A stretch of 32,668 bases of DNA from a virus: the IMG/VR virus record IMGVR_UViG_3300010354_000325, positions 1 through 32,668 of that record, one strand, 5' to 3'. Positions 4,013 through 32,668 of the stretch are shown one piece after another. The notes under the pieces were generated by a model. The model was given only the letters and a program-made list of their open reading frames with translations, was not told the DNA's origin and did not search any database. Within the stretch, counting starts at the first letter, position 1; the number at the start of each line of letters is the position of its first letter. Both the position numbers and the translations under genes were made by a program.

Positions 4013-4018
4013 CTCCTT
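4013..4018 (-). promoter_or_regulatory. Strong Shine-Dalgarno site that fixes the gp55 start
   Basis: The minus strand reads AAGGAG, then seven bases, then ATT at 4005-4003 in the gp55 frame. It is the best ribosome site in the divergent region and no ATG, GTG or TTG lies at the right distance in frame. This is the reason for choosing the ATT start of gp55. Confidence 0.6.
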
Positions 4019-4073
4019 AACGCTTTATAATAAAAATAACATAGTTTGCCATAAATTGCAACCATTTTTTACA

Positions 4074-10501: not shown

Positions 10502-13500
10502 ATGCCAATCACTAGTCGTCAAACTGGATCATTAATAGCAGAAAACTGGACTAAGGTCTATCAGACTTTTAGAGACGCCGACTTCACCTCGTACGATTTC
10601 GAAAGTCTACGCAAGACCATGATTGATTATATCAAGGTCAATTATGCTGAAGAATATAATGATTTTACAGAAAGTTCAGAATTTATTGCATTGGTAGACT
10701 TAATTGCTTACCTAGGGCAAAGTTTAGCTTTCAGAACCGATCTTAATGCTAGAGAAAACTTTATTGACACTGCTGAACGCCGTGATAGCATTTTAAAATT
10801 AGCAAGACTTATTAGTTATAACCCTAAGCGAAATATTCCTGCCTCGGGTTATTTGAAGATTGACAGCATAAGTACCACCGAAACAATATTTGACAGTGAC
10901 GGACTTGACCTAAGTAATCGTATTATAATTTGGAATGACCTTAGCAATACTAATTGGTTTGAGCAATTTGTCAGTGTAGTAAATGCAAGTCTGCTGCAAT
11001 ATCAAACATTTGGTCGTCCGTCTAATGCACAGACTGTTAATAATGTAAGAACAGAAGAATACGGAATTAACTTAATCAACAATATTTTACCTATCTACAG
11101 ATTTGAAGCTTCGGTTAATGGGCTTACCACAAGTTTCGAAGTAGTCAGTGCTACTAGTATAGGTAAGAACTATGTTTATGAACAAAAACCAAACATTAAT
11201 CAACCATTTAATATCTTATATAGAAATGACAGTAATGGCAATGACAGCAATAACACAGGGTTTTTTCTTTACTTTAAACAAGGCGAACTTAATAACTTAG
11301 ACTTTACTATTGATACCGGTGTTCCCAACAAAATAGTTAATATTGATGTAGACAATATCAACAACAGTGACTTATGGTTATACAGTTTAGATCCCTCGGG
11401 ATTTACTGATGAGTTATGGGAGCAGGTAGTAAGCACCAATGTTATCTATAATACAAGCTCATCAAAAAACATTTATCAGGTAAACAGTAGAACAAATGAC
11501 CAAATCAGTCTAGTATTTGGCGACGGGGCTTTTTCTAAAATTCCGCAAGGTAAATTTAGATTATATCATAGAATCAGTAATGGCAATACTTACAAAATCA
11601 CACCAGACGAAATTCGCGGAGTGCAAATAAGTTTTGACTATATCAGTAGAAACAATCGAGTTGAAACAATTACATTTCGTGCCAGTCTCAGATACACAGT
11701 GGCTAATGCCAAAGCAAGAGAGTCAGCTGACGAAATCAAACAACGTGCACCACAGCAATATTATACACAAAATCGCATGATAACCGGGGAGGATTATAAC
11801 ATTCTCCCCTATACAACATTTTCTGATATTAAAAAAGTCAAATCAATCAATAGAATAAGTTCAGGCCTAAGTAGGTATCTTGATACTCTTGATGTCACTG
11901 GCAAATATTCTAGCACCAATATATTTGGCGAGGATGGCGTCTTATACTCTGAGCAATCTCTAGACACCATAGAGTTTAGTTACACTTCACGATTAGAAGT
12001 GCAAAAGTTTATACGTAATGTATTCATTCCTGATGTGATAGATAATAAAGATGTCATGCATTATTATCATGACATAGTTGCCCCACAGGTGCTAATAGAT
12101 TTAACTGTTACAGAAGAGAATATCTTAAAAGATGAGTTATATGAGATTACCGCAGTAGGTAATACAGATTTTATCAAATACGGAGCAGAAACAAACGCAG
12201 TTGGTCACGTGTTTAGAGCTAACAAAGATTCAAAACGCAACATCGAATATACTTTAACCACCAGCGGCAATAATCATGTATTATTAAACGGTCCACTTAC
12301 CAGCTACAATCCTGTTACCGGTCCTTGTAACGGTAACTTTGGATATAGCACTAGTTTTTCTATCAAACAAGGTACCAGTCTTGATTTTACTATTTTCAAT
12401 GCACCGCCTGGAGCTCTGTTTACGATTACTAGAAAATACACCGGTGCCGGTCCCGATCCATGGTCTCCCAACCCTAGTACCACTTCTAATAATATCATAG
12501 GCATAGATGGTAGATATTCAGCTGGCTTAAATTTGTTTACAGCTTCGGGTACCTATGTTTATGAAATAAATTTTATTTCGTACAATGGAAATATATTAGA
12601 TGGTCCTAGAAGAGTATATACACTAACAGTAGAACCAGCTTCATTAACGGAAACTTATACTAACTTTGGTTTAGGTTACGTTGAGCAAGTTACACAGTCG
12701 GGATCTATGCCAAATCCTGACATTAGAGTACGTGCTGGTGAGATCGTATATATTAAAAACCTAAGTTCGCAGCCCATCCATATTAAAACCAGTCCTGTAG
12801 GTGGTTTTTTAAGTAACGTTATAACTGGATCTGTAACCAATAACGGCACTAATTTTGGTACTATAAGTTGGGATACCACAGGTGTAACTCCTGGTGTTTA
12901 TTATTATGTCTCAAGAGACTATACCGGTAAGCCATATACCATTGAAGATTTTGTTACAGAAAGTCGTGGGTCATATTCAGCAGCGGTATATAGAGAACGT
13001 GCTTTAAAAATATTACCTTTATATACCAGTAATAATGAATTCATTTTGCCTAATGGTGATTTACGTTATGGATTTTATCGTAATCCTGATAGGGGCGGTC
13101 TAGCTTATTGGACCACAAACAGTCTTATCAACAATCACAACGTCGAAACATCGGAATTTTATAGAATATTTTTTACAGCAGCAGATGCAGCAGAAACAAC
13201 CTTTAGACATCTTACAAAAAACAAACAATTCTTATCTGGCAATGGTGGTGGATTTTTCTATGATAGACCGACAACTTGGCCAACCAATCATTTGGCTGGT
13301 AATATCATAGTTGAAAGTTTTGGAACCGGCACAGCAACATCTAACTATAAGTGGCATCTCAGTTCAACTGAGACTGGTGTTTCTACTGGTTTTTTCTCAT
13401 ACAATGGCAAACCGGTTTCAATTGGACCAACTGTGCAATCGGATCGCAAAGTTTTAAGTACAGGTGCCTTAGTCAAATTCATACCAGATTATGGTTATCA

Positions 13501-15305: not shown

Positions 15306-18300
15306 ATGGCCGTTAGTAGAAAAACTTTAAAATTATTACCTGGCATTTTTCAAACAGATGCGAATCGTAAGTTCCTAGGCAGTACATTAGATCAACTTAT
15401 AAGCGAACCTAATTTTCGTCGCATAAACGGCTATGTCGGAAAAACAATTGGTCCAGGATTTCAAACCACAGATGGTTATGTAGTTGAAAATTCTGCTAGT
15501 AGGCAAAATTATCAATTAGAAGTTGGTCTTGTTGCACGTAACGCTAATGGTCGAGTTGAAAACTTTGCCAATTACCAAGACTTACTAAATCAATTATCCT
15601 ATTATGGTGCAATAACCAATAATCACGATCGCCTCTTTAATAATCAAAGTTATGCTTTTACTCCACCTATAGATCTAGACAAGCTGGTAAATTATAAAAA
15701 CTATTATTGGTTACCAGCTGGGCCAGAAGAAATCCGTATAGGTACGCTACAAGTTTTTCCGGGCACTACTTACAATTTTATAGATCAAACCACTCATTTT
15801 TCAGTTGATGTTGCCGGTACTCAACCGACTCCTCGTTTGATTTTACAACGTGGTGTTACTTATACTTTTAACGCATCGTGTTTTGGTGGAAATTTATTTA
15901 TACAATCTGAGCCAGGTAAATCTGGTACAAAAAAGTATGCTCCTAATGTTTCATCGAGACAAGTTGCCGGAGTCACAAACAATGGCTCAAGTACAATAAC
16001 ATTTACTCCACCTTTAGAAGGTTCACAAGATTTATTACTAAGATACCCTTTAGTTGACCAAGTAGAATATGCATTAGGCACAGGGCAAAGTTTAACAACA
16101 TTAGACAACGCGGTGTGGACATTTGGTATTGGTATGAATAGTAACCTTAATGGTGACCAGTTCTATCCTGATAATACTGAAGTGGTTTTTGTAGCTACCA
16201 ATAATGCCACTAACACCGACTGGGTTGACAGGAATGGACAAGTTATTCCTGTAGATCGCAGAACCGGTGTATTCAAAATGTCGGTGATTAAGTATTCCGG
16301 GCAACCTGCCAGAGTACAATTAGATTTTGTAAGAGCCATATCTAATAATACTCGATTACGTGTTAATCAAGGTGTCAATAAAGGTAAAGAATTTTACAAT
16401 AATGCTGGTTCATATGCTGAATTTAATGGCATAACCGGTGAATCATCCATTTTATTTTATCAGCATAGTGGTAAAAATATCACTGGCGAAATACATATTA
16501 TCGATCGTGCATATCCAACTATTGACGTTAATGCTATACTTGGAGCAGTGACTTATACGACTCCAGATGGTATAACATTTTCAAATGGTATGAAGGTAAC
16601 ATTTGATGATACAATCAATCCTGTACAGTATCGTAATCGAACATTCATTGTAGAGGGTGTTGGTACAGCTATAAAGTTAGTGGAATTATCTACTTTACTT
16701 GCACCAGAGATAACAGAAAACCTAGTACAAACTGCGTTTGAAGTAAAACAATTTGACGTTGGTAAGTACGACGAAACATTTTATGGTTCACGCATACCGG
16801 ATTATATTGTAACAAACAGAGCCAGTTTGGATAAAAACGCTTGGAGTCGTATTAACAGATGGTTTCATAAAGATGTTATTACAGAATCACTGCGTAGAAA
16901 TGGTTATCAAGAAGATCTCAGTGGTTTTGCTAATGCACAGCGTCCCATTATTGAGTTTGATGCAGATTTACAACTATACAAGTCAGGTCGCATATTTGCA
17001 GGATTTGTAAATCATTTTTTTGACTCGTCTAACACCTATGTTGCTCGTGGGCAACAAAGGGTATTTGATGATGCATTAGGAATATTGAATAATTTAAAAT
17101 TTGCCGATTTGTCTGCCTATAACTTGGATCTGAAGCCAGGTGAAACAGCAGTGTTTGGTAATGATAAATCTGTAGCTGTAAGGAAAAAAGTATACTCAAT
17201 CAACCAATTAGATCAAGTTGCTTCAGTTGTTTTTGATGGATTGATAACTGGCACTGTAACAATTGTTGGCAATAAAATTACTGGCACTGGTACAAATTTT
17301 GTAACACAACTTGCCATTGGTACCGATGTATATGCAGCAGATAATGCATATCTAGGACGCATAAGTGAAATAAAAGGTATAAACGAGGCTTTGTTACAAA
17401 ATCCTATTAATTTTGCCTTTGCTAATCGAACAGGTCTTAAGTTTAATCAAGCTAGAATAGTGCTTGCAGCACAAAAAGATTTAACAGATTACGACATAGT
17501 AGTAGGATTTGATGGCACCAATACCGGCAACAGTTTTTACTTGATAGGTAATACTTGGTATCAAGCACAAAGAAAACTTGGTATAAACCAGCCGCCCTTG
17601 TTTGATATTGTAAATGATCGTGGTATAAGTCTAGACACAGCGTACACTGAAAGTTCATTTGCCGGATCTTACATTTTTGGATATAAGCAAACTACAGGAA
17701 TACCAGATCCAGTATTGGGTTTTGCCTTAGACTATTCTGATCCTACAGAACTGTCAGGCGATATCTTATTTAAAAATTACTATGATTCGGATACCTTTGA
17801 ATATAGACCCCAACTGGTATTAGAAAATAGAGTAAAACTTAGTACTAATCTTGGTTTCATTAAAAAAATTACCGGTAGATTTAGCTTTGTTCGAAGCAAT
17901 TGTTATACGCCTGTTGGCGAATTCTCTAGGCAATACCAGCACATTAGAGCCCAGTATGATGCCGTAACAAATTATTTTGAGATAGGTCGTCAACCTCGTG
18001 CCGAAGTAGGCAAAAGACCAACTGTAAAAGTTTTTGTTAATAACAATCAATTACAATTAACATCGTCTACGGTGCCAGAATATCGAACTGAACTAGTTGG
18101 TAATCGTGTAGCATTGGTAATTGATTACAACCTCTTGACCAAGGGCGATAAGATAGACATATTCATCTATGCCGATGGTGCCAGCAGTCTTGGTTATTAT
18201 GAAATCCCGACAAATTTAGAAATTAATCCATTCAATATTGGTGTACAAGAAATTAGTTTTGGACAATACAGAAGTAACCTAAAGAAAATTGGTGAAAATA

Positions 18301-21300
18301 ATAGATTTTTAGTTGGAAATATTTTTCAATCAAATAACATAAGAGACCTCAACACTAAAAACGTTCCTGGTACTATTTTACAGCATAGCGGATCTTTAGT
18401 TCCTGCTATGGCTTTTTTGACCAATAATCAAATTAATTTTATAAATGCCTGTGATTTTGCAGCCAAAGAATACACAAGATTTAAAAACAAATTCTTAGAT
18501 GCAGCAAATAATTATTTAGACCGTGATATAACCCAAGTACCCGTCATAGTAGACGAAATTCTTCAAAGATTAACCGAAGTTAAAAATGAAAAGTTTGCTT
18601 GGCATTACTCGGACATGGTACCATTTGGTGGCAAAAATCAGATTACTAATCGTAGAGTAACTGCCGGTGTACAAAGAATTTACAATTTAACTGGAACGTA
18701 CCTAGACCAGCCCAGCAATGTTGCAATGTTGGTTTATATCAATAATAAAATTTTAAGTCGTGATCGTGACTATACACTGCAAGATAAGTTACTAACTATC
18801 TCTAATAGTGTATTATTAAAGGAAGGTGACGTACTCACCATAAAAGAATACTATGACACTGACGGATGTTACGTACCCGAAACACCAACTAAGCTAGGTA
18901 TGTATCCTAAGTTTATACCTGAAAAACTGTTCGATGAAAGTTTTTCTAGTCCGATGTACGTTATACAAGGGCATGATGGCAGCTTACTTCCGGCCTTTAA
19001 TGATATACGTGATAGTATTGTTTTAGAATTAGAAACAAGAATTTACAATAATATCAAAGTTGGTTATACAGAAACCCTTTTCAATCGTCGTAGGTATAGC
19101 CCGGGTCGATATAGAAGCACTGAGTACACAAGATCTGAATTTAATTCGGTATTAAGCCTTGAGTTTTTAAAATGGGTAGGAGAAAATAGCTTAGATTATA
19201 CTACCAATAGTTTCTTTGATTCAAACGATGAATGGTCGTGGAATTATAATCAAGCTAAAGATTTAGATGGTATGCGAGTTCCTGGCTATTGGCGTGGAAT
19301 CTATCGTTATTTTTATGATACTGATAGGCCACATACTCATCCCTGGGAAATGCTTGGTTACTCAATCAAGCCCACCTGGTGGTCTACTTACTATTCATGG
19401 ACTGATCCCGAAAAACGTAGAGCATTAATTTCGGCCATAGAAACAGGTAGAACACTAAGCCCTGGCGTTAATAATTTTCTCACCAACATTAATTCAAGTT
19501 ATGCTAGACCGGGATTCGCAACAGTAAATCCTGTAGATAATAATGGACAATTGATTCCGCCGCAGCAGGTAATGATTTCAGGCTTTGACAGCGAGCGGTT
19601 ATCGGGTAATTTTACAATAGGTGATTTTGGCCCAGTTGAATCAGCATGGACCAAAACTAGTGAATATGCTTTTGCCGAGCAACGTGCGTTTGCCTTATTG
19701 AAGCCTGCACAATTTTTTGCTCTTTACATTGATACGCATAAGAATTTATTTAATGCCGCTATAAATCAATATGTGGTAAGAAGCACCACTGCTAGGTATG
19801 ATTTCAAACAACTTACAATTAATGGCGAATTTAGAAATAATCAAATTCAACGTAGCTCTAGTTATGTAAATTGGATACATGGTTATCTTACCGGTATTGG
19901 TATAGATGCTGCCCCCCGTATCCGCACCTTGGTAGATTCTGCCTCATTGAATTTATCTTACAAATTTGGTGGATTTACTAACAAAAACTATATTAATGTT
20001 TTAGCTAACCAAATTAGTTTAACAAGTAAGAGTCAAAGTTTGGTCATACCAGAAGAAAGTTACACAATACATTTGCACAAAAGTTTGCCAATTGAAAGTG
20101 TTGCATACAGTGCAGTGATAATCGAAAGAACCAGTCGTGGATTCAGTGTAAATGGGTATGATCAAAAGTTTCCATACTTTACTATAATTCCAAGTCAAAC
20201 AACAGGAACCAGTAATCAAGTAACTATTTTAGGCGAAACTGTGATATTGTTTGAAAAGTTTCTGCCGCAGAAAATTAAAATACCATATGGGTTTGAATTT
20301 ACATCATTGCAACAGGTCAGCGACTTTTTAATAAGTTATCAACGATATCTTTCGGCTCAGGGTATTATATTTGATACATATGATGCAGGATTAGGTACTG
20401 TAAGGAACTTTACACTCAGTGTACAAGAGTTTATTACTTGGGCTAAACAAGGTTGGAAATCCGGCAATATATTAGTATTGAGTCCAATTGTTGATACCAT
20501 AAGTATATTCTCACAAAACTTTGTAGTTGATCATATAGACAATTATGTATATGGATCACAAATTGTTGGCACTAACTATAACATAATTAGAAATAATGAT
20601 TTTACAGTATTAAGAGACAATAAACGCACAACCATTACCACCATTAGTGGACAAACTATTGCTTTGATTAGATTGAATCTAATTCAATATGAACATGTTC
20701 TACTACTAGATAATATCAGTATTTTCAATGATATAATTTATAAAGCCGAAGTTGGTAATAGACAACAAAGAATTAAACTGCTAGGGTCAGTTACAGATTC
20801 ATGGGATGGAGAATTAACGCCACCGGGTTTTGTATATTCTGATGGCAAAGTAGATAAATGGCAAGCCAATTTTGATTATAAGAAAGGCGAGATAGTTGAG
20901 TACAAATCAAGATTCTTTAGTGCTTTGCAGGATATTGAAGGCTCTGACAGTTTTAATTTTAATTATTGGACAAGATTAGATTCTTCTTTTAGAGAAGGAT
21001 TGTTACCTAACTTCAGTCAAAATGCTGCTAAGTTTACAGACATTTATGATGTAGACACGCTACCTTACGATGAAAATTTAACACAATACAGTAATAGTTT
21101 AATCGGATATCGTACAAGGTCATATTTAGATAACCTAGGGTTAGATCCAGTATCTCAAATCAAATTTTACCAAGGCTATATAAAAGATAAAGGTACCATG
21201 AATGCTGTTACAGCATTTGAGCGTGGTGTTTTTAATAATGTAGAAAACGCTATTGAAATATATGAAGAATGGGGTGCTAGGCTTGGTGTATATGGAGCCA

Positions 21301-24300
21301 TTGATAATAACCCAGAGTATAGTTTTATATTACAAAATAGCAAGATAGATGACAATCCCATGTTGTATCAAATGGTTGATGCAAATCAATCTGCCGACAA
21401 CCATTTGTTCAACACAATAAAACCAAGAGATTTACAAATATATCCCGATAATTATTCGCCGCATATTTTTAAAAATCGCAATAAATTTGAAAGTCGGATA
21501 TGGAACATCGAAATGTTTGGCGATGGCACCATGAACGGGAAACTGGTTGAAAAAGATAGATATGCTATCGACGTTATTAAACGTCGTGGATATAGTATAG
21601 ATATTCAACAAACAGGTGCATATTCCTTGATGGTGACCGGTCCTTTTGATCAAGAATTTGCAAAAACAGTGGGTCCTCAAGGCACCTTCCAAATTTATTT
21701 TACCAGTGCATATCCAAATGAACAACTGTTCATGACTATAGAAACACCCACAGCCTCTGATGTTGAACTAAGTCGTTCTCAAGGCGACGAGCAAGTATAT
21801 ACATCTACTGATGTTGTTTATGCTAATTCTGATGTATGGGCAGCGTTTACTACAAATGACTACTTTGAGCGTGTTTATGTAACTTTAGAGCCTGCTCTGT
21901 ATCCAGATGCACCTAGAACAATGACTCAGCAAGGATCGGCGTTTTATCCTGATGAAGTCAAGATGGGCGAAAATATTTTCTTAGAAGTTACATCATTATT
22001 TGAACAAGAAGAAGTATATTGGAGTTTCGAAGAAGTCAGCGATCAAGAAGTACCTGGAGATTTTACCGAGGGACTGGGCGACCAAATTAATACTTCTAAT
22101 GATAAAACACAGGGTCGAGTTGGTCAAACACCTGACTTTATGTTGTTTAATGCTTTAGAAAAAGACTTTGAAGTATCTGTAACATCCAAAGCTGCCGAAG
22201 TTTCTACTACTAAAATGTTATTAGATGGCACTGACGGTGTAAACAAAGTATGGCCTGACAGTGTCGAAGCTGACATTGTTATCATCAATCACGGATTTAA
22301 TGATGCCAAGATGGGCGTTCCGGTTGAAACATATAGACAAAATCTAGTAACACTAAGACAACGTCTTCCTAAAAATAAGGTAGTTGTTTGGCAAACTCCC
22401 TTACGCATAGACAAAAGTAATCCCTATACAAACTTTGCTCCAGTGGGCACAAATGATCTCACAGCATACGCTGCGGCCATGATAACTGTAGCCAATGACT
22501 TTGGTGATTATGTTGCAGATGTTTTTAACAATGAAGAATTAAGAAATCATTTGGCAATTGACGGCATACACCCAACACAAGAAGGTTATAGAATAATTGT
22601 AGAAGATATTCTACAACCGGTGGTACGTCAGGCTATCGGTGATCAAATTCGTGGACAATACAAGTATTACGAAGATGATATCAAAACTGCCGGTTATGTA
22701 ATGTTGGACGAAGTTGATAGTCTTGTATTTGATATAAGAAACTATAGAGAATTTGATTCTAACTTATTGGCAAATCTAACTCGAGGTTATAAAATTTGGG
22801 TAGCCAAAGACTTTGATAATGATTGGCAAGTTTATCGTGCTTATATTTCACCTGTACAGATTACCGCAGCGAGAGCAGATTTAGATAATAAATTAGTGTT
22901 TACCTGTACAGCACCGCATAGATTACATATAGCTGACATGGTAGCTGTGCGTGGGGTCAGCAATTTAGTAGATGGTTTTTATCAGGTGTTTACTGTCACA
23001 GACGTTGAGTTTGTTGTAATCAAAACTGGTCTAGCAAATGATTTTTCAATAACAGGTAGTAGAGCTAACTTAATTGATTTAGAAAAATTGAGATTCCGTA
23101 ACCATGCTGAATTAGCAGCATATACTCCTAAGTATGGATGGATCGCTGATAATAAATTTGATCTACCAAGGGCAGAATCTAAGGACATTATCTATATAGA
23201 TGAAACCGGATTACCTAACTCTTGGGCAGTTTATAGACCTGCTATATCTGATTTCACATACAATAATATCTTCTTCAGTAATGTTATAGTTTCTAATGTG
23301 TACAGTATTGTGGGAATAAATTGCGAAGTTGCAAATTCTTTAGTGACCGCAGCCGAATACAGTGACGTAATTAATTTCTGTGTGTTTGGTATTGAAGATG
23401 GTGAAGAACTATACTATACCATTGAAGATGCCACAGAAGATGACATCGACCGTGACGCTGTAATAGGTGGAGAAACAGTAACCGTCAAAGAAAACGCAGT
23501 CAGTATTGAAAATATACAATATGATTATGTAAAACTGCGTTCGGCAGACAATATAGTTGATATTGAAAGCATTAATAATATCTATCTTTATAACAATAAG
23601 AACAAACAAATATTGAGTCGCGTTGACCTATTTGATCCAGCCAAGGGAAGAATTCTCGGACAAGCAAGAGCCGATATTGATATTATATCAAATCGCGATC
23701 CTGCTGCTTATCGTGTCACTGATGCCAGCACAGACTTTTACTTTAGTGAAGAAGTTTTTTGGGGTCAGGATCAAGTAGGCACTTATTGGTGGAATACTGA
23801 TAACTCGCGTTACATTGATTATGAACTAGGTGATTTGAAATATAGAACAGACAACTGGGGTAGACTATTTCCAGGAAGCACTATCGAAGTTTATGAATGG
23901 TTTGCAAGTGATGTATTACCGTCTGTTCATGTAGCACAGGGTTTGGAGGGCACGCCCTTATTTGCCAACGACGAATATTATTCTGATACTGTATATTTGG
24001 ACAAGGAGACTGGTAGTTTTAGAACCAAGTATTATTTCTGGGTAAAATCACGTACTAACAAATCTAACCAAAGTAAAAATAACAGTACTGCTTCGCTAGA
24101 GGCCATGATACGTGATCCGCTAATACAGGGTTATCCCTATCTAGCTGCATTACGTGATGATGCTGTGGCTGTGTATAATGCAGGAACTTATCTCAATAAC
24201 GATGAAACAATTTTATATATTTCTAGTAAACGTCTTGTAACCGACCAAATTATTCATAGTGACTTTGTTTTATTGCAAGATGGAAACCCTGCTGTGCGTT

Positions 24301-27300
24301 TTCCAGAGGCACTTGAAAACAAATTAATAGACAGTTTGGTGGGATCAGACACTACAAATAATCTTGTACCTAATCCTTTACTGATTGAGCAGAAAAAATT
24401 AGGGTTAGGGGTAAGACCACAGCAGACATTAATTGCCGATAAGCGTCGTGCCAGAAGCAACATTATAAAATATATAAACGATATATTAATTCAATACCCT
24501 GTTGTCAGTAAAATCGTCAACAATAAAGGAATTTTTTCTGATAATTTTTTTGCCAGCGAAGCGGAACCTGCAGGCAATACTTATACTGCGGCAGTAGAGA
24601 CTAAAGATCAAATTTACGATCCTGAACAAACTGTGCCCACCATGTTGATTTTGGTAAAGAGTGATGTAACTCTCGGTGGGCTATGGGCTTTATATTCTAG
24701 AACCGGAACAGTTGGAGAATATCCAGCCGCCTACAATACTCAAATACGTTTAGTTAAAAAACAAAGTTTTGACGTAACTACTTTATGGAAATTCCATGAT
24801 TGGTATTTACCCGGTTATACTAAAAACACACAGCCTGATGTCATAGTAGAGGAGTTCAAAGATGTATACAAACTTGATTTAGTACACGGCATCATAGTCA
24901 AAGTCAAAAACAATACAAACTCAATATTGCCATATGGTAATATTATAAACGATTACGAGGAAACTCAAGGCGATTGGGAGTTATATAGATTTGATGCTAT
25001 ACCGGGTGGTAGATTTAATCCTGTGTTGATAGGTCTCGCTAATAAAACACTGCAAATTTCAGATACTGTAAGTGATTTTGAAGGGTTCGATGCTTTTGAT
25101 TTTGATGTTGATGTGTATGATAATCGCAAGGACATAGAATTAAGATATATTCTTGCAGGGCTAAAGTCAGAAATTTTTGTCAATGAACTAAAAGACGAAT
25201 ATACCAAGATGTTGTTTACCATGGTAGATTACATATTGGCTGAGCAAAAATATATTGATTGGTTCTTCAAGACCAGTTTTATTTCTGTCAAACATTCCAC
25301 TCGCGAGTTAACAAGATTAACATCAACCGTTAGTAATTATCAAAAAAATGTAGAAGACTATGTAAGCGAAATCAAACCATATAGAACAAAGATAAGAGAA
25401 TTTATTTCATCTTATGACAACGTGGAAAATTATGTTAGTAATGTGACCGATTTTGACGTACCTGCTTACTATGATAAGGAACTAAAAGTATTTAGAAGTC
25501 CAGATGGTACATATTTTGAACGCGATATATTAAGGCTTGCTAGACCTGAATATCAAGCATGGAATCAAAATTATCGATATACCATAGATGAACTAGCGAT
25601 ATCTAGACCTGGCTATGGTTTTCAGAACTTTGATACTGGTGCAGCTATAACTCCGGCTATTGAAATACTACGTACCGATAACAGTCCGGGATTAGAGGCC
25701 AATGCCGAAGTTAAGATAGATAATATTAATTACGGTATAAACAAAGTATACATGGTGAGTACAGGGGAGAATTACACATCGACTCCTGTTGTAAAAATAA
25801 TAGGTACCGGTAGTTCTAGGCCCAGTGATGATGACAAGTATGTGTTTACTGTGGTATCACAAGGCTATAGTTATTACACATTAAATCTAGACAAAAAGTT
25901 AAGTTTTGGGCTATATGGTAATTTCAATGCAGATACATTAACAAAAAATTATGCTAGATCACTAGTATCACCAATTGCATGGACCACTGGCACAGGATCA
26001 ACTGGCAATTTTATCAAGCATGGACTTGACTCAGAAAATCATCGTAAAAGAGATCTTGATCCTTGGATGATGGAAAACCTAGTTTGGGAAACAAGACCTG
26101 CAGGTGATGGCAATAACGATGGTGGATATACCACTAACTTTTTTACAATAGACCCAACCAAGACCTATCGTAGTGTGGTATGGATGCGTAGAAATTCTTC
26201 GGCCAATGGTGGAACATTCAATCATGGTGTTTATACAGATGGTACATGGCCTACGTCGGGTGCTGGCACAGGTAGTATACGTAGATTGGTAGATGGAGTG
26301 GGTGTAAGTGATGCTGTTTGGTCAGGACGTAATGTAGCAGATTATTACATGGGCGAATGGTATCTACACGTAGGGCACATATTCCCTAGCAGTCACACTG
26401 GCACTACTGCTCACCCTGATAGCGGCATTTACACTCGTACAGGTGGGCGTGTTTATACCAATAATGGCAGTATCGATGACGGAAAGTTTCCTCCAAACGC
26501 CGCTCAAGCCATGCAGCGTGTGCATCATAGTTTTTGTTCAGACACCGATACTAGGGCTCAGTTTGTTTATCCTAGATTTGAAGTAGTCGATGGTACTGAA
26601 CCTAGTGTATATCATTTATTGCGTTTTGGTCCTTATGCCGATGTAAAACACAGTGTGGCCAACCGCGGGTATCACATGCATAGGATACGTCGTGCTGATG
26701 GTTATGTGGCTTTTTCAAGAATATATGACATTTACCTAGAGTCAAACGCAGGGTATACAGGTTATACTACCAAAGATCTTGTAATAGATCTTAATGCTAC
26801 AACAGATGACTATGTAGTAGTTGTTCATACCTACGACGAACCTAGCCGCAATAGATTGAATAATAACTTACATTTGGCCATGCAAAGATGCGGTGCCAGT
26901 GTTGAAATGTTTGGCAAACCGGGAACTCCGGCACCAAACTTCCGTTTCAGAGGCAGTTATATACTTGTTGGTGTGCCTGGCTGTGGTGCTGGTCGTGGTA
27001 TAGAGCATTATGCAGGATCAGTAGACAATGCCGATGATGCTTATTGTAGTGTTACATTCAAGATTGAACGTGGCTACATGGCAGCATTATCTTCTAATCC
27101 TAGACATTACAAGTTCAACTATCCATTCCAGTTACCGGCTCTTCCCAATACCGGACAAAGTTACACATATGGTGAGCGTATATATGTGTACGATGGATTT
27201 ACCTGGCGTGGCACAAAAGTAATTACTCCATCTTTGCCAAATAGTCGTATGCCGGCATCGACAGTATTAACACCACGCCTTACAAATCGTACAGTAAGAA

Positions 27301-29723
27301 AAGTCAAAACTACATTACGTTTTGATCGTGTGCAATACACCACAGTGTTTAGAGAATGGGCTCCGCAAACTGCCTATGTTGCAGGGGAATATGTAAGTTA
27401 TCTAGGACAAGGTTACACAGTCAAATCTGATTTTTTCTCCAGTGCTAATTTTAATACTGTGTTTTTGACTCCGGTTGCTGCTGGTAGTTTTGATAATGCT
27501 AATGATAGAACCATGGGTTTCTACATTCAGACCCCGACCAACTCAGTACCCAAAGTACTTTATCAACTTATTCCTGGTATAAGTTCTTTGAATCCTGTAG
27601 CAGTAGGAAATATTCGACAAACAAATGATACAATATTATTCGGTGATACATTTGGATCGTCGGCTGGTTTATCTGCTGGAAATATCAAAGTAGCTGGTGG
27701 TAAATTTGTTGATAGAATATTCTCTCATTCACCAGAAGAATTATTGCCGGGATCAATATATGATAGTCTATCTATCAGAGTAGCAGAATTAACAGTTGCA
27801 GCCAGTTCTACTACTACAACCACTGCTCCTCCTGCCGGACCTAATGAATTGCACTTAGTTGGCGATAGCGAGTCAACCATAGAAGTGCCCTATATTGAGC
27901 GTCCGGTTGAAACCAGTGACAGTTTTGCTGTGGGCATACGCGGGGACGACAGCATAGGCGGTTTAAGTCCTATTGAAATTGAAGTTATAGAAAAACCGCC
28001 AAATAGTTCGGTAACTATATATCCGCAGAACTTTAGTTTGTTAACTGGGCAACAGAAACAAGTTTTCTTCCGTACTCAAAATGTCATGTTAGATGGTAAT
28101 GTCTGGTATGACCTTACTACTAATCATAATGATTTCAAGTTACTTGATAACAGTCCGGTTTGGAATGAACAAGTACGAGGAAACTTCAAGTTTAATGTTT
28201 CTGGCAATATTTTAGATCGTGCAAGTTCTATAGCACCTGCTATGACTGGAATCAATACAAGTCCTGGTGGTTACAATACTGTATGTATGTGGATGCGTTG
28301 GACCGGAGAACCCAACGGATTCCCAATGGAATGGAAAACTGGTTACAGATTATGGATGCCTGGTGGTGCACTAGGATTTAACAACGGATCTGGTGACCTA
28401 TATGGAGTAACCAGTAGCCAGTTCGCAATGTTTAAGAATTCTTGGGTATTTGTTACAGCAGTGTTCCATAATACAATTGGTGGAAGTACCTATGTCGGAT
28501 ATAACAAATTATATATAAACGATCGACAATTTACACTAACACAGGTAAATGGACCGGCTACTTCGGGCACAGCTGGAATCGGAATTACTATTGCTAACAT
28601 TACTAATCCTTCTGTGTCTCCGGATGACTACGAATTTGATGGAGACGTGTCTGAAGTGTTTGTCTATAACAGAGAATTAGATGCCGGCGAAGTTGAAGGA
28701 TTGTATTTCGCTACTAAACCGAGATATCCAGCACCACCGACTACAACTACAACATCAACAACAACTTCGACGTCGACTACAACCACTACTATAGCACCTC
28801 CTCCTCCATTGCCACCAGGTATTTCTGCCACTAATGCTGCTTGGGGTGGAAATGGCTTTGGGGGTACTGTAAATTATCGTGGAGGATATAGTGCAGCGAA
28901 AAGTCATATGGGTAATGGCGGCGGCGGATCGGCTAGTCCACTTGGTGGTGAAGGTGGATCTTGGGTTAGTCCTATAGGTGGTGAAGGTGATCATGGAACC
29001 GGTGCTTCGGGTGGTGGTTATACAACTGCTGGAATAGCAGGCACAGGGGCAAATCCTGGATATAGTGCCAGTGCTGTGCAAGCTACTGGTGTTGGTAATG
29101 GTGGCGGTGGAGTAGAAACAGATGGTGCTAACAGTGGCACAGCTCCAATCAATGGTGGTGATGGCACAGGTGGTTTGGTGCGAATAACAATTGCCGCAGG
29201 TACGTATACATTTACTACAGCTGATGTTACTGCATTTGGTGCTACAAGATTAGTTGCCAGTGGTCAAGGCATTGAGTGGGATAACAGTGCCAATACAAAT
29301 AAGAAAAATACTGCAAATGTTTATCAACACGCACTGGTAGGTAATTTCACAGTGCCTGTGGGAGTAACTGCTATTACTGTTGGCGTAATCGCCGGTGGAG
29401 GTGGCGGTGCTACTGGTCCTTGTGTTAATGCCGGCGGGGGCGGAGGTGGTGCATCTTTACTACAAAATTATGCAGTTGTGGCAGGACAGAATTTTGTAGT
29501 TAAAGCAGGTGCCGGTGGACAAGGTGGAAGACAACCTACAGATAGAGGATCAGCAGGAGGACCACCTTATGGAGTAAGTGATGCACCTTGGCGTGGTGGT
29601 TGGTCAAGTTTCTGCTCTTTTAATGGTACTGAAATTTTTTACGCCACTGGTGGAAACACAAGACCTGATAATTGTGCCAATGTACAAAACGCTGATTCGG
29701 CTTCGGCGAATACAAGAGATTAG
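15306..29723 (+). CDS. Giant modular baseplate/adhesin protein (4805 residues; T4 gene 7 position)
   Basis: One uninterrupted frame of 14.4 kb following gp6, where T4 has the 1032-residue gp7. The N-terminal part (LLPGIFQTDANRKFLGSTL, TNNHDRLF, LVNYKNYYWLP) and later blocks (YWRGIYRYFYDTDRPHTHPW) belong to a family I associate with aquatic T4-like phages, probably wedge or peripheral baseplate. Modules, by residue: cupredoxin-like 170-250; beta-barrel repeat GTVTIVGNKITGTGTNF 643-690; carbohydrate-binding CBM5/12-like 1850-1896; SGNH-hydrolase-like about 2245-2445 (GFND 2330-2333, DGIH 2419-2422, serine missing); beta-sandwich 3560-3780; ILEI/PANDER-like 3785-3925; second CBM5/12-like 4015-4058; Thr/Pro linker 4169-4178; LamG/lectin-like 4266-4470; Thr/Pro linker 4479-4507; Gly-rich 4508-4805. 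The C-terminal modules are adhesin-type, so host contact is likely. It ends in adjacent in-frame stops TAG TGA. Baseplate role fairly sure; gp7 homology is a guess from position. Confidence 0.7.
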   Translation: MAVSRKTLKLLPGIFQTDANRKFLGSTLDQLISEPNFRRINGYVGKTIGPGFQTTDGYVVENSASRQNYQLEVGLVARNANGRVENFANYQDLLNQLSYYGAITNNHDRLFNNQSYAFTPPIDLDKLVNYKNYYWLPAGPEEIRIGTLQVFPGTTYNFIDQTTHFSVDVAGTQPTPRLILQRGVTYTFNASCFGGNLFIQSEPGKSGTKKYAPNVSSRQVAGVTNNGSSTITFTPPLEGSQDLLLRYPLVDQVEYALGTGQSLTTLDNAVWTFGIGMNSNLNGDQFYPDNTEVVFVATNNATNTDWVDRNGQVIPVDRRTGVFKMSVIKYSGQPARVQLDFVRAISNNTRLRVNQGVNKGKEFYNNAGSYAEFNGITGESSILFYQHSGKNITGEIHIIDRAYPTIDVNAILGAVTYTTPDGITFSNGMKVTFDDTINPVQYRNRTFIVEGVGTAIKLVELSTLLAPEITENLVQTAFEVKQFDVGKYDETFYGSRIPDYIVTNRASLDKNAWSRINRWFHKDVITESLRRNGYQEDLSGFANAQRPIIEFDADLQLYKSGRIFAGFVNHFFDSSNTYVARGQQRVFDDALGILNNLKFADLSAYNLDLKPGETAVFGNDKSVAVRKKVYSINQLDQVASVVFDGLITGTVTIVGNKITGTGTNFVTQLAIGTDVYAADNAYLGRISEIKGINEALLQNPINFAFANRTGLKFNQARIVLAAQKDLTDYDIVVGFDGTNTGNSFYLIGNTWYQAQRKLGINQPPLFDIVNDRGISLDTAYTESSFAGSYIFGYKQTTGIPDPVLGFALDYSDPTELSGDILFKNYYDSDTFEYRPQLVLENRVKLSTNLGFIKKITGRFSFVRSNCYTPVGEFSRQYQHIRAQYDAVTNYFEIGRQPRAEVGKRPTVKVFVNNNQLQLTSSTVPEYRTELVGNRVALVIDYNLLTKGDKIDIFIYADGASSLGYYEIPTNLEINPFNIGVQEISFGQYRSNLKKIGENNRFLVGNIFQSNNIRDLNTKNVPGTILQHSGSLVPAMAFLTNNQINFINACDFAAKEYTRFKNKFLDAANNYLDRDITQVPVIVDEILQRLTEVKNEKFAWHYSDMVPFGGKNQITNRRVTAGVQRIYNLTGTYLDQPSNVAMLVYINNKILSRDRDYTLQDKLLTISNSVLLKEGDVLTIKEYYDTDGCYVPETPTKLGMYPKFIPEKLFDESFSSPMYVIQGHDGSLLPAFNDIRDSIVLELETRIYNNIKVGYTETLFNRRRYSPGRYRSTEYTRSEFNSVLSLEFLKWVGENSLDYTTNSFFDSNDEWSWNYNQAKDLDGMRVPGYWRGIYRYFYDTDRPHTHPWEMLGYSIKPTWWSTYYSWTDPEKRRALISAIETGRTLSPGVNNFLTNINSSYARPGFATVNPVDNNGQLIPPQQVMISGFDSERLSGNFTIGDFGPVESAWTKTSEYAFAEQRAFALLKPAQFFALYIDTHKNLFNAAINQYVVRSTTARYDFKQLTINGEFRNNQIQRSSSYVNWIHGYLTGIGIDAAPRIRTLVDSASLNLSYKFGGFTNKNYINVLANQISLTSKSQSLVIPEESYTIHLHKSLPIESVAYSAVIIERTSRGFSVNGYDQKFPYFTIIPSQTTGTSNQVTILGETVILFEKFLPQKIKIPYGFEFTSLQQVSDFLISYQRYLSAQGIIFDTYDAGLGTVRNFTLSVQEFITWAKQGWKSGNILVLSPIVDTISIFSQNFVVDHIDNYVYGSQIVGTNYNIIRNNDFTVLRDNKRTTITTISGQTIALIRLNLIQYEHVLLLDNISIFNDIIYKAEVGNRQQRIKLLGSVTDSWDGELTPPGFVYSDGKVDKWQANFDYKKGEIVEYKSRFFSALQDIEGSDSFNFNYWTRLDSSFREGLLPNFSQNAAKFTDIYDVDTLPYDENLTQYSNSLIGYRTRSYLDNLGLDPVSQIKFYQGYIKDKGTMNAVTAFERGVFNNVENAIEIYEEWGARLGVYGAIDNNPEYSFILQNSKIDDNPMLYQMVDANQSADNHLFNTIKPRDLQIYPDNYSPHIFKNRNKFESRIWNIEMFGDGTMNGKLVEKDRYAIDVIKRRGYSIDIQQTGAYSLMVTGPFDQEFAKTVGPQGTFQIYFTSAYPNEQLFMTIETPTASDVELSRSQGDEQVYTSTDVVYANSDVWAAFTTNDYFERVYVTLEPALYPDAPRTMTQQGSAFYPDEVKMGENIFLEVTSLFEQEEVYWSFEEVSDQEVPGDFTEGLGDQINTSNDKTQGRVGQTPDFMLFNALEKDFEVSVTSKAAEVSTTKMLLDGTDGVNKVWPDSVEADIVIINHGFNDAKMGVPVETYRQNLVTLRQRLPKNKVVVWQTPLRIDKSNPYTNFAPVGTNDLTAYAAAMITVANDFGDYVADVFNNEELRNHLAIDGIHPTQEGYRIIVEDILQPVVRQAIGDQIRGQYKYYEDDIKTAGYVMLDEVDSLVFDIRNYREFDSNLLANLTRGYKIWVAKDFDNDWQVYRAYISPVQITAARADLDNKLVFTCTAPHRLHIADMVAVRGVSNLVDGFYQVFTVTDVEFVVIKTGLANDFSITGSRANLIDLEKLRFRNHAELAAYTPKYGWIADNKFDLPRAESKDIIYIDETGLPNSWAVYRPAISDFTYNNIFFSNVIVSNVYSIVGINCEVANSLVTAAEYSDVINFCVFGIEDGEELYYTIEDATEDDIDRDAVIGGETVTVKENAVSIENIQYDYVKLRSADNIVDIESINNIYLYNNKNKQILSRVDLFDPAKGRILGQARADIDIISNRDPAAYRVTDASTDFYFSEEVFWGQDQVGTYWWNTDNSRYIDYELGDLKYRTDNWGRLFPGSTIEVYEWFASDVLPSVHVAQGLEGTPLFANDEYYSDTVYLDKETGSFRTKYYFWVKSRTNKSNQSKNNSTASLEAMIRDPLIQGYPYLAALRDDAVAVYNAGTYLNNDETILYISSKRLVTDQIIHSDFVLLQDGNPAVRFPEALENKLIDSLVGSDTTNNLVPNPLLIEQKKLGLGVRPQQTLIADKRRARSNIIKYINDILIQYPVVSKIVNNKGIFSDNFFASEAEPAGNTYTAAVETKDQIYDPEQTVPTMLILVKSDVTLGGLWALYSRTGTVGEYPAAYNTQIRLVKKQSFDVTTLWKFHDWYLPGYTKNTQPDVIVEEFKDVYKLDLVHGIIVKVKNNTNSILPYGNIINDYEETQGDWELYRFDAIPGGRFNPVLIGLANKTLQISDTVSDFEGFDAFDFDVDVYDNRKDIELRYILAGLKSEIFVNELKDEYTKMLFTMVDYILAEQKYIDWFFKTSFISVKHSTRELTRLTSTVSNYQKNVEDYVSEIKPYRTKIREFISSYDNVENYVSNVTDFDVPAYYDKELKVFRSPDGTYFERDILRLARPEYQAWNQNYRYTIDELAISRPGYGFQNFDTGAAITPAIEILRTDNSPGLEANAEVKIDNINYGINKVYMVSTGENYTSTPVVKIIGTGSSRPSDDDKYVFTVVSQGYSYYTLNLDKKLSFGLYGNFNADTLTKNYARSLVSPIAWTTGTGSTGNFIKHGLDSENHRKRDLDPWMMENLVWETRPAGDGNNDGGYTTNFFTIDPTKTYRSVVWMRRNSSANGGTFNHGVYTDGTWPTSGAGTGSIRRLVDGVGVSDAVWSGRNVADYYMGEWYLHVGHIFPSSHTGTTAHPDSGIYTRTGGRVYTNNGSIDDGKFPPNAAQAMQRVHHSFCSDTDTRAQFVYPRFEVVDGTEPSVYHLLRFGPYADVKHSVANRGYHMHRIRRADGYVAFSRIYDIYLESNAGYTGYTTKDLVIDLNATTDDYVVVVHTYDEPSRNRLNNNLHLAMQRCGASVEMFGKPGTPAPNFRFRGSYILVGVPGCGAGRGIEHYAGSVDNADDAYCSVTFKIERGYMAALSSNPRHYKFNYPFQLPALPNTGQSYTYGERIYVYDGFTWRGTKVITPSLPNSRMPASTVLTPRLTNRTVRKVKTTLRFDRVQYTTVFREWAPQTAYVAGEYVSYLGQGYTVKSDFFSSANFNTVFLTPVAAGSFDNANDRTMGFYIQTPTNSVPKVLYQLIPGISSLNPVAVGNIRQTNDTILFGDTFGSSAGLSAGNIKVAGGKFVDRIFSHSPEELLPGSIYDSLSIRVAELTVAASSTTTTTAPPAGPNELHLVGDSESTIEVPYIERPVETSDSFAVGIRGDDSIGGLSPIEIEVIEKPPNSSVTIYPQNFSLLTGQQKQVFFRTQNVMLDGNVWYDLTTNHNDFKLLDNSPVWNEQVRGNFKFNVSGNILDRASSIAPAMTGINTSPGGYNTVCMWMRWTGEPNGFPMEWKTGYRLWMPGGALGFNNGSGDLYGVTSSQFAMFKNSWVFVTAVFHNTIGGSTYVGYNKLYINDRQFTLTQVNGPATSGTAGIGITIANITNPSVSPDDYEFDGDVSEVFVYNRELDAGEVEGLYFATKPRYPAPPTTTTTSTTTSTSTTTTTIAPPPPLPPGISATNAAWGGNGFGGTVNYRGGYSAAKSHMGNGGGGSASPLGGEGGSWVSPIGGEGDHGTGASGGGYTTAGIAGTGANPGYSASAVQATGVGNGGGGVETDGANSGTAPINGGDGTGGLVRITIAAGTYTFTTADVTAFGATRLVASGQGIEWDNSANTNKKNTANVYQHALVGNFTVPVGVTAITVGVIAGGGGGATGPCVNAGGGGGGASLLQNYAVVAGQNFVVKAGAGGQGGRQPTDRGSAGGPPYGVSDAPWRGGWSSFCSFNGTEIFYATGGNTRPDNCANVQNADSASANTRD
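27810..27824 (+). repeat. Thr-codon linker repeat 1 (giant protein)
   Basis: A run of ACT/ACA/ACC codons encoding TTTTT, followed by Ala/Pro. It separates the CBM-like region from a beta domain leading to the LamG-like module. Its 12-mer at 27813-27824 is identical to one at 28776-28787. Confidence 0.7.
28740..28790 (+). repeat. Thr/Ser-codon linker repeat 2 (giant protein)
   Basis: A 17-codon run of Thr with a few Ser codons, followed by a Pro-rich stretch (APPPPLPPG). It joins the LamG-like domain to the Gly-rich C-terminus. Base composition is low complexity (ACN repeats), while the frame stays open. Confidence 0.75.
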
Positions 29724-29738
29724 TGAAAGCTCAATAAA

Positions 29739-32668
29739 ATGGCAATTTTTTTTAATGAAGGTCAATCTGGAGCAGGTTCGAACTTAAGTAAATGGAATCG
29801 TAACGACACCTATACAATGTCGTCGATTTCTGGTATAACTGGACCTGTTGTTTGTCATGGACCATCACCTGGGCAGTATACTCTTACAATTAATAATATA
29901 CCCGCACACGCTAGATTACGTTATTCGGTTTACTGGCATTTTGTTGACAGTTTAGATAACGAGCTTAGTTATATCATGATTGATGGTGTAATATGGGCGG
30001 AGTTTAGAAAATCTGGCTTTGGTGGTATTAGCCCTCCAACATACACCATTAATAAATTCACGTCATCTACCTGGAATCCTGCAAATTATAGTTACGCACC
30101 GTGGGGATCAAATAATACATTAAATGGTTATGTTGCATTTGATACTGGTTGGTTTGATCATACTTCTAGCACGCTGTTCGTAGATCACATTTTAGGACAT
30201 GATCAAAGCCAGCCCGACGAAGCCATGTACCTAAGTCATGTCATGTTAGAATACTATTCAGAGGTGGCAAATTTACCAACTTCGGGATTAATTTTGCGAT
30301 TAGATGCTGGTATTGTTGATTCTTTTCCTGGTAAACAAAAATTTGTATTTAGAGCTAAAAGAACAGGCACTACAGAATCCGTTATATTTACACACTATCA
30401 TCGAGCTAACTCTCTGCCAGTAACAACATCTACATCGGGATTTTTTACTCCGCCTGCTCCTAGGATACGTGCAACTACCACCACGACCACAAGTACTACA
30501 AGTACCACAACTGAACCACCTACTCCGATTACAATAAATATTTCTTCAAATTTACCAAATCCAATTTTAGCACATCAGAAACCGCAAATTACTTTTACGT
30601 TTAACTTACCGGTCGTTGTTTTTGAATCTGCTAATGTTGTAGCACAAGGTTCGGGTATTCTTGACAATTTTAATTACGTGGCCGGATCAACTACAGGGTA
30701 TGCTAGTTTTACCCCAACACCTGACGTTTTAGGGTCCTATACTATTTTTATACCTGTGCCAAATATTACAGGTACTAATGGTGCTGTTAATCAATTTAGT
30801 AATATTCTTACGTTGAATGTGAATTCTGTTAGACCAGAAATGCTTATAACTACGTCAGATGCTTTATTGATTGCCGGTGAAGTTGCTAATCTTACATTCA
30901 CCAGTAGTAATAACACTTCAAACTTTTCAAGCACAGATATTAATCTAGTTGGACCCGGTACCTTTGATTCTTTCACTGCTGTAAGTGGTACCGTTTATCA
31001 TGCCAATGTATATCCGCGTGCTAGTTGGGTTGGCGAAATAGAAGTTAATGTTGCTGCAAGATCCTTTACTAATGTAGTTGGCAATTTCAATAAGCCTAGC
31101 AACGTATTAAAAATTCCAATCGATACTAGAATACCCTCTATGGTAATTACCACAGACGATTCGTTCCTTACCTATAACCAAACCGCAACATTGACTTTCA
31201 CCAGTAACCTAGCCACTACAAACTTCGTACGTGGTGATGTAACAACAGTTGGTAAAGGGGTTTTAGGGGCATTATCGGGATCAGATGCTGTTTATACTTC
31301 AGTCTACACTCCGCAGGCAGATGAAATTGCGATTTCGGCAAGCAATTATAATCAACCCAGCGGCGAGTGGTCTTCATTTATTGAATTAAATGGTACCGTA
31401 GTTACTACTGTGGGTCGTGGGCACATGGCTGCTGTGTTTGATACCAGTCAAGGTAATATACGATTCGTTTCGTCAACTACCAAAGATACGTATGGCACAC
31501 CATCAGATATAACAGATTTGATAGCTTATTTGTCCGCAGTGCCGGCCGGAAATCTCCTAGTAATGACTTCTTTTGATGCCACGACAGTAGATACAGCGTT
31601 GAGAACTACATTAAACTCTGACTTTGGCGGTGTTCGTTCGGAAACATGGTCGGCAATTCGTTATAGCCATGTATTTGTTGGTTACAAGAGTTTAGCGGGC
31701 AGAACTGCTTATGAAGACATAATCTTTACGGGCACAGAAGGGACATTGTTAGCTAATGTTTATGGAATAGCTGGATCTTTCATGGCCAATGTTATGGCTG
31801 CAACATACACTAGCGCTAATGGTAACCCAAATACTTCTTCTAATGATTTGAGTTTGACCTACGATACTGAACGTCCCAACATGTCAATTTATTCTAATGA
31901 CCAATACTTGACATATGGAGAAACAAGCGTTGTGTATTTCGTAGCTACACAACCCACAACTGACTTTGCATTTGGTGACATTGTTGTTTCCGGCGATGGT
32001 GCATTATCTGGGTTCACTGCTGTTTCGAATATGGTATATACAGCGACCTTAACGCCTACTACAAATACAACGGGTGCAATTTATATCTCCGTACCAGATT
32101 CATCGTTTACTAACTCAGTAGGTAATCCTAACCTTGCCAGCCGTATAGTGAAGATAGAAGTTATGACTGTTACAACAAGTACTTCTACCTCAACCACTAC
32201 TACAGAAGCTCCTGGTATATCAACGACTACTACAACAGCATCTGGATCTGGAACTACTACAACTACCACAGACTCGGGATCTGGAACTACTACAACTACC
32301 ACAGACTCAGGAGCTGGAACTACAACTACTACAACAGCATCTGGAGCTGGAGCTGGAACTACTACAACTACAACAGCATCTGGAGCTGGAACTACTACAA
32401 CTACAACTACCGCAGTATGTGATTCGAGTGTAATGGTTTATTCTAATGGTATTGACTTTACAATATGTCCATCATGCGATTACAATTTAGGAGCAGGCAC
32501 TCGGGGTGTATACACAGCAACAAACTTCTCTGGTGCAACAAGTTATTCTATATCAACCATTGCTGCTACCTCAGCAGCCGCTTCACAAGCCGGACCTTTT
32601 GCTACTGGTCTGACTACCTTTACAAGAACTACCTTAGCTGATAATACCTATTATGTAACTGTAAGAGA
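29739..32668 (+). CDS. Modular tail-fibre/adhesin-like protein, 3' end cut by window edge
   Basis: Open frame from ATG 29739 to the window end (976 codons seen), in the same frame as the giant protein upstream. Modules, by residue: N-terminal beta-sandwich about 20-175 with RYSVYWHFVDSLDNE and DTGWFDHTSS, seen in aquatic phage virion proteins; Thr/Ser linker 246-258; Ig-like repeats 264-365, 365-463 and 711-810 of the Big_12 type (e.g. GDGALSGFTAVSNMVYTATL, SFTNSVGNPN); a further repeat starting at 461 that is interrupted by an ILEI/PANDER-like domain at about 559-663 (RGHMAAVFD, TSFDATTVDTALRTTL, YSHVFVGYKSLAGR) and resumes at TYTSANGNPN; a Thr-rich tandem-repeat linker to about 892; then a Cys-containing domain (CDSS, ICPSC). 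This layout suits a fibre or peripheral baseplate adhesin. No Shine-Dalgarno site precedes the ATG. The T4 counterpart is unclear. Confidence 0.75.
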   Translation, partial: MAIFFNEGQSGAGSNLSKWNRNDTYTMSSISGITGPVVCHGPSPGQYTLTINNIPAHARLRYSVYWHFVDSLDNELSYIMIDGVIWAEFRKSGFGGISPPTYTINKFTSSTWNPANYSYAPWGSNNTLNGYVAFDTGWFDHTSSTLFVDHILGHDQSQPDEAMYLSHVMLEYYSEVANLPTSGLILRLDAGIVDSFPGKQKFVFRAKRTGTTESVIFTHYHRANSLPVTTSTSGFFTPPAPRIRATTTTTTSTTSTTTEPPTPITINISSNLPNPILAHQKPQITFTFNLPVVVFESANVVAQGSGILDNFNYVAGSTTGYASFTPTPDVLGSYTIFIPVPNITGTNGAVNQFSNILTLNVNSVRPEMLITTSDALLIAGEVANLTFTSSNNTSNFSSTDINLVGPGTFDSFTAVSGTVYHANVYPRASWVGEIEVNVAARSFTNVVGNFNKPSNVLKIPIDTRIPSMVITTDDSFLTYNQTATLTFTSNLATTNFVRGDVTTVGKGVLGALSGSDAVYTSVYTPQADEIAISASNYNQPSGEWSSFIELNGTVVTTVGRGHMAAVFDTSQGNIRFVSSTTKDTYGTPSDITDLIAYLSAVPAGNLLVMTSFDATTVDTALRTTLNSDFGGVRSETWSAIRYSHVFVGYKSLAGRTAYEDIIFTGTEGTLLANVYGIAGSFMANVMAATYTSANGNPNTSSNDLSLTYDTERPNMSIYSNDQYLTYGETSVVYFVATQPTTDFAFGDIVVSGDGALSGFTAVSNMVYTATLTPTTNTTGAIYISVPDSSFTNSVGNPNLASRIVKIEVMTVTTSTSTSTTTTEAPGISTTTTTASGSGTTTTTTDSGSGTTTTTTDSGAGTTTTTTASGAGAGTTTTTTASGAGTTTTTTTAVCDSSVMVYSNGIDFTICPSCDYNLGAGTRGVYTATNFSGATSYSISTIAATSAAASQAGPFATGLTTFTRTTLADNTYYVTVR
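30474..30512 (+). repeat. Thr/Ser-codon linker repeat 3 (fibre gene)
   Basis: Encodes TTTTTTSTTSTTT followed by EPP. It links the N-terminal beta-sandwich to the Ig-like repeats, with the same codon style as the linkers in the gene upstream. Confidence 0.7.
32244..32414 (+). repeat. 33-base tandem repeat encoding a Gly-x-Gly-Thr6 linker
   Basis: Five consecutive in-frame units. Units 1, 2, 3 and 5 are 33 bases (11 codons) and unit 4 is 39 bases, with two extra codons (Gly-Ala). They encode GSGTTTTTTDS twice, then GAGTTTTTTAS, GAGAGTTTTTTAS and GAGTTTTTTTA. Units 1 and 2 differ at a single base (TCG versus TCA in the last codon), suggesting recent duplication by slippage. The length differences are whole codons, so the frame is kept. 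Confidence 0.85.

Follow-up and report, generated by a model that had tools for sequence, protein, structure and literature searches.

The window analysed here, 32,668 bases long, is the record of a virus, an uncultured jumbo phage, and encodes a giant baseplate protein in which an SGNH domain is split by three inserted repeats and carries glycine (Gly2074) at the position of the nucleophile serine. We consider this split domain to be probably a non-hydrolytic virion module, for which glycan binding would be the most likely role.

The protein that harbours it has 4805 residues (15306..29723, + strand) and lies directly 3' of two baseplate wedge genes. It matches phrog_10938, a virion structural protein, with 1040 bits. 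Ten gene products of the window were scanned against PHROGs; among them, all on the + strand, are three wedge subunits of the baseplate, one at 4983-5282, a small one at 10081-10473, which is placed as GAP32 has its gp25-like gene, and a large one at 10502-15295, as well as a hub/tail-lysozyme protein (7863-10070). Going by the gene order of T4, we take the place of the giant protein to be that of gp7. Its residues 1901-2900 matched 58 phage records in a tblastn search; among the 40 listed, nearly all are jumbo phages, including PA5oct, SCTP-2, GAP32, PBECO4 and RaK2. A near-DNA search of phage records with the window sequence returned no match. In PA5oct, too, the orthologue comes after two baseplate wedge genes; it is annotated with an ESI-MS/MS note, which we take to mean that the protein was detected by mass spectrometry.

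Towards its C-terminus (26664-29720), the giant protein has an ILEI match (3787-3892), a CBM_5_12 match (4017-4040), a glycine-rich stretch (4679-4783) and Thr/Ser-rich linkers; the first three are further candidate receptor-binding parts. The ORF that comes after it (29739-32666), open at the window end, has Big_12 Ig-like stretches at four places, together with a match to ILEI that falls slightly below the cut-off. A 189-residue ORF on the other strand (2522-3091, -) matched nothing in the PHROGs and Pfam scans.

Blocks II-V of the SGNH domain occupy residues 2267-2446 (22104..22643, + strand) and are matched by Pfam GDSL_2 / Lipase_GDSL. PF13472 matches the full-length protein with an E-value of 1.7e-13 and the excised region with 4.5e-15, well above the cut-off. 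Two features of active SGNH enzymes are present: the block III asparagine (N2332, in GFND, residues 2330-2333, 22293..22304) and the DxxH of block V (D2419 and H2422, in DGIHPTQEGY, 22560..22589). The block I serine of the GDS motif, in turn, is absent: the sequence reads GDG at 2072-2074. The Pfam match starts only at profile position 14-21, so that block I falls outside it, and in the unsplit homologues L018 and L048 it runs from profile position 1. A match that omits block I yet looks normal calls for caution when esterases are annotated from Pfam matches. Other searches added little: NCBIfam gave no useful family, the SGNH region found only distant SGNH proteins in the named phages, and the window domain alone retrieved no relative from viral contigs. 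A search of genome contigs returned 12 bacterial loci (L056-L067) with partial matches.

The block II region reads AAEVSTT (residues 2296-2302, 22191..22211), where relatives have SVGNSTS, SVENSKS or SVEGSTT; relatives carry G, N or E at the block II glycine, according to which column is taken for it. We did not accept the loss of this glycine as separate evidence that the domain is inactive: the position varies among relatives, and the SGNH enzyme SrL is reported to keep its activity with Gly54Ala (PMC10779480).

The true block I (residues 2066-2078, WNIEMFGDGTMNG, 21501..21539) comprises the first β-strand and the nucleophile loop, and its core F-G-D-G2074-T-M-N-G (residues 2071-2078) is encoded at 21516-21539. 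It lies about 180 residues upstream of GDFTEG (22056..22073), which an earlier note on this DNA had taken for a block I with one serine codon deleted. The positions given there for GDFTEG (2251-2256), AAEVSTT, GFND and the block V motif all proved correct, and the SGNH fold and the missing serine were rightly recognised; the location and the cause of the loss were not, as block I lies outside the interval considered, across a repeat array that had been missed. Aligning the window with two close relatives, L007 and L008 (69% and 61% identity over the downstream query), makes this plain. At block I the window reads IEMFGDGTMNG, L007 reads IELFGDSTMCG and L008 VELFGDSVICG, so that GDS is indeed found in relatives, at the upstream site; in the columns of GDFTEG, they have GVVTLG and DTATEG, respectively.

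A position matrix built from the block I of nine unsplit homologues was then slid along all 4805 residues. Site 2066-2079 came first in the whole protein with 20.8 bits (runner-up, -0.5), and GDFTEG scored -11.7 bits, rank 119 of 4792 positions. With the serine column masked, the block I site still scored 22.6 bits, whereas the highest score in 200 shuffled proteins was 15.6. Searched locally by HMMER with a profile made from six unsplit homologues, the protein gave blocks II-V (2263-2462, 6.8e-55), with no separate match for block I. GDFTEG is thus ruled out as block I by the columns of the relatives, by its rank in the matrix scan and by its position straddling the end of the third inserted repeat. 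The aligned codons show a Ser/Gly difference at 2074 and no codon deletion: the window has GGC (21525..21527), and L007 and L008 have AGC and AGT, both for serine.

Between block I and block II lies an insert of 188 residues (2079-2266, 21540..22103, + strand), in the same place as the accessory region of an Ape-like split domain. It contains three repeats of about 48 residues, which split the SGNH domain: residues 2108-2159 (21627..21782), 2157-2208 (21774..21929) and 2204-2255 (21915..22070), with i-Evalues of 3.6e-17, 9.4e-16 and 4.7e-19 in hmmsearch with the repeat profile. A fourth copy lies downstream of the domain (residues 2680-2720, 23343..23465; 5.9e-07). In unsplit homologues, block I is joined directly to the RV..PP segment, and the distance from the block I GD to the RV motif is 26-28 residues in the close ones and 15 in the distant L022. 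Split baseplate copies have 79 (L033), 133 (L035) or, for the others, 194-219 residues; in L014, L038 and the window itself, our script did not pick up the RV motif.

In this place there is no repeat in L039, a single one in L033, two in L035 and three in most others; L042 has only two repeat matches in an insert of three-repeat length. In L040, there is no insert after block I, and about 90 residues containing a repeat stand directly before an intact block V. The L040 repeat match (ORF residues 1521-1571) is thus in a different SGNH loop, in a copy that reads GDG and GLMD.

As to the nature of the repeats, the window insert has no match in Pfam, Ig families included, and matched no PDB sequence up to E=1. 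Modelled alone, the insert shows β-strands only, at a low mean pLDDT of 62. With this model and these searches giving nothing useful, we rejected the names Ig-like and CBM for the repeats. A tandem repeat finder found none in the window DNA.

The structure of the domain was modelled with AlphaFold2 on 13 aligned sequences. Block I is modelled with a pLDDT of about 87 and blocks II-V with values mostly of 75-97; that of the insert is low. The earlier suggestion to compare a predicted structure with SGNH esterases was borne out: in VIA-align 2, the best match of the model is 1yzf (Z 21.8, 182 aligned residues, rmsd 2.3, model residues 9..389), with the first aligned residue, 9, inside the block I strand. 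By an ungapped count from that residue, which is not a residue-level alignment, G2074 falls on residue 10 of 1yzf and, by the same count, on the mutated residue given in the entry titles of 5b5l (S10A) and 4jko (Axe2_S15A). Since unsplit homologues were among the aligned sequences, the model and the alignment are not independent. When a profile of unsplit homologues was aligned to 1yzf, block I fell on KIVLFGDSITAG, in a weak first segment (4.2 bits) next to the main match. Altogether, the region is predicted to adopt the fold of the SGNH/GDSL superfamily, with block I on its first strand.

Of 28 distinct copies of the domain, 25 have a pair of cysteines, placed within block I (GDxxxCG) and ahead of the RV motif; three copies (the window, L022 and L055) have neither, and none has a single one. 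A natural reading is that the pair forms a disulphide stapling the loop, which in split copies would sit at the base of the insert. In the window, the sites of the lost pair are 21516-21539 and about 22095-22106: one loss is a two-base codon difference, the other comes with four residues missing in frame.

The 28 copies are what remained of 33 rows once near-duplicates (L016, L034, L041, L044 and L047) were removed, 20 in the baseplate protein and eight in other proteins. The serine is absent from 10 of the 20 baseplate copies (nine Gly, one Asn), against none of the eight others, all of which are intact. Block III asparagine is replaced in 11 baseplate copies and block V histidine in six; only L007, L008 and L012 keep serine, asparagine and histidine together. 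In five copies (L013, L014, L031, L037 and L038), the asparagine has become arginine, which might still serve the oxyanion hole, so these are perhaps not dead. The block V aspartate and the block I GD are kept in all 20. The replacements differ by lineage: Ser by Gly or Asn; Asn by R, M, E or Y; His by Y, F or I. In related phages, this active site has been broken by changes of several kinds. In the cultured relatives in the alignment (PA5oct, SCTP-2, GAP32, XaC1 and PBECO4), there is no SGNH domain at that place.

An error of sequencing or assembly in the codon for the nucleophile would need only one base (AGC to GGC) in what is a virus contig. It is nonetheless extremely improbable, since the same copy also lacks both cysteines and has SKA for a conserved TRS, and since GDG recurs in eight other distinct baseplate copies.

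We built a tree from the baseplate sequence flanking the domain only. It groups the window with L007 and L008 (100/100) and then with L011 and L012 (100/100). As all four relatives have the serine, its loss lies on the window's own branch. Minimum changes over this tree are five for the serine states (four as present/absent), four for the asparagine and one for the histidine; without the long-branched L040, serine changes number four. A tree of the domain itself, with 27 of the 28 copies (L055 left out), also puts the serine loss on the window's branch. It pairs the window with L007 (97/87), while the flank tree pairs L007 with L008 (99/99), a conflict that may stem from recombination of the domain or from uneven rates.

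A loss on a terminal branch is what one would expect of a useful esterase only just inactivated, with the rest of the site to follow. Consistent with such decay, the window differs from its relatives close to the first two blocks (S to G, C to N, TRS to SKA), with both cysteines lost; its retained Asn, Asp and His also fit a recent loss and no new role. We nevertheless hold decay to be quite unlikely. The reading frame is open over all 4805 codons, and old serine-less clades (L015/L042/L045/L051/L053 and L033/L035) retain the domain, with low dN/dS wherever it is measurable.

For blocks II-V, we estimated dN/dS in catalytically altered pairs chosen for unsaturated synonymous sites, and found 0.075 (L045/L053), 0.150 (L045/L051) and 0.032 (L014/L038); the intact pair L018/L019 gave 0.085. 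These low values show that the domain is maintained by purifying selection after its catalytic residues have changed. The window's own comparison suffers from saturation at synonymous sites: the core compared with L007 gives 0.11 at a dS of 2.59. An excess of unique changes in the window core is weak (p=0.049, uncorrected, with five lineages tested), and we do not take it as proof of faster evolution.

Could the maintained fold and its repeats be no more than baseplate scaffold or bulk, a spacer that has no ligand? Catalytic residues would then drift freely, and indeed different ones are broken in different lineages; the domain is also absent from the cultured relatives examined and so dispensable in general. 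A mere spacer is an unlikely explanation nonetheless, as purifying selection is as strong as in the intact pair, the invariant block V Asp and block I GD show no such drift, and three baseplate copies are fully intact.

We return to the non-hydrolytic module. SGNH serine esterases proceed through an acyl-enzyme on the serine, with the DxxH motif as the base, and hydrolysis needs the serine of block I. With Gly2074 at the nucleophile position, the ordinary serine-esterase reaction is impossible. In SrL, Ser10Ala, Asn82Ala and His216Ala each are reported to lose all activity with a nearly unchanged CD spectrum (PMC10779480). The earlier note had also envisaged the use of another serine, a suggestion that found no support: among the relatives compared, no conserved Ser or Thr stands out as a substitute, and at T2075, which adjoins Gly2074, they show I, V, L, S or T. 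It is accordingly very unlikely that the domain is still an esterase, through another nucleophile or a serine-independent mechanism, even if Asn2332, Asp2419 and His2422 remain and unusual SGNH active sites have been described (PMC9487903, PMC12313940); those sites, as far as these reports describe them, keep the serine, whose change to alanine abolishes the activity of SrL (PMC10779480).

In the non-hydrolytic module that we favour, block I (2066-2078) and blocks II-V (2267-2446) would meet in the fold and the three repeats would loop out. The domain would be kept with Asn2332, Asp2419 and His2422, and its old acetyl or sugar pocket, with the repeats beside it, would most likely bind a host surface polysaccharide reversibly during adsorption. 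Of the non-catalytic glycan-binding module put forward in the earlier note, the first part is the likeliest state of the domain, and the second would be its likeliest role.

A broader possibility, which we rate as appreciably less probable, is that the baseplate SGNH domain has come to serve, across this group of jumbo phages, as a display scaffold, in which repeats invade the loops of the active site, catalytic residues are lost repeatedly, and the domain binds and does not cut. The repeats are inserted after block I in 18 of the 20 baseplate copies and before block V in L040. Growing by whole units (0, 1, 2 or 3), they could provide an evolvable receptor-binding array.

Phages commonly carry SGNH esterases as enzymes of host recognition. 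Those of phage tails (G7C gp63.1, Moo19 gp82, B2 gp48/gp49 and Klebsiella prophage receptor-binding proteins) are virion esterases and in this respect alike. Moo19 Gp82 (9d81) matches our model with Z 18.6 and B2 Gp48/49 (9d84) with Z 17.8. Phage tail SGNH proteins have been demonstrated to be esterases, with surface polysaccharide as their presumed target (PMC11654681, PMC13123978). As presented there, they are active and sit on tailspikes or fibres, unlike the window copy, which is split, lacks the serine and belongs to a giant baseplate protein.

Domain insertion into SGNH is already known from Ape and CE20 enzymes. In Neisseria Ape, a peptidoglycan O-acetylesterase (4k3u; Z 17.7 to the model), a CBM35-like domain at residues 104-221 lies between Ser80 and Gly236, and so between blocks I and II as in the window (PMC6174289). 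Ape is an active serine esterase with one CBM35-like domain, in contrast to the array of roughly 48-residue repeats found here; it is also a periplasmic enzyme, whereas ours is part of a virion protein. The CE20 esterases XacXaeA and Fl8CE20_II are described with a discontinuous SGNH domain and an inserted β-sandwich adjoining the active site (PMC12313940). They differ from the window in being active and in having the insert after block II, judging by the residue numbers Gly199, Tyr334 (ancillary) and His515 given in that report. The insert of L040 likewise comes late in the domain.

In the literature that we searched, with subscription papers mostly outside it, no account of a dead or split SGNH domain in a phage or a baseplate came up. 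The novel features are the array of repeats with its variable copy number, the second insertion site, the baseplate setting and the repeated loss of catalytic residues. One baseplate lineage contains intact and variously broken domains in the same place, unsplit and split, with 0 to 3 repeats. Such copies form a natural series for how a receptor-modifying enzyme may turn into a receptor-binding module.

The closest unsplit relatives outside the baseplate protein are, by sequence, L017, L018, L019, L046 and L048, from uncultured phages. They share with the baseplate copies a GDSIMCG-type block I, the cysteine pair and the RV..PP segment; they differ in being separate large ORFs, unsplit, with Ser, Asn, Asp and His intact in all five. 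In L017, L018 and L048, the intact SGNH domain is N-terminal in a large ORF, and in L018 it is followed by ILEI and Laminin_G lectin domains.
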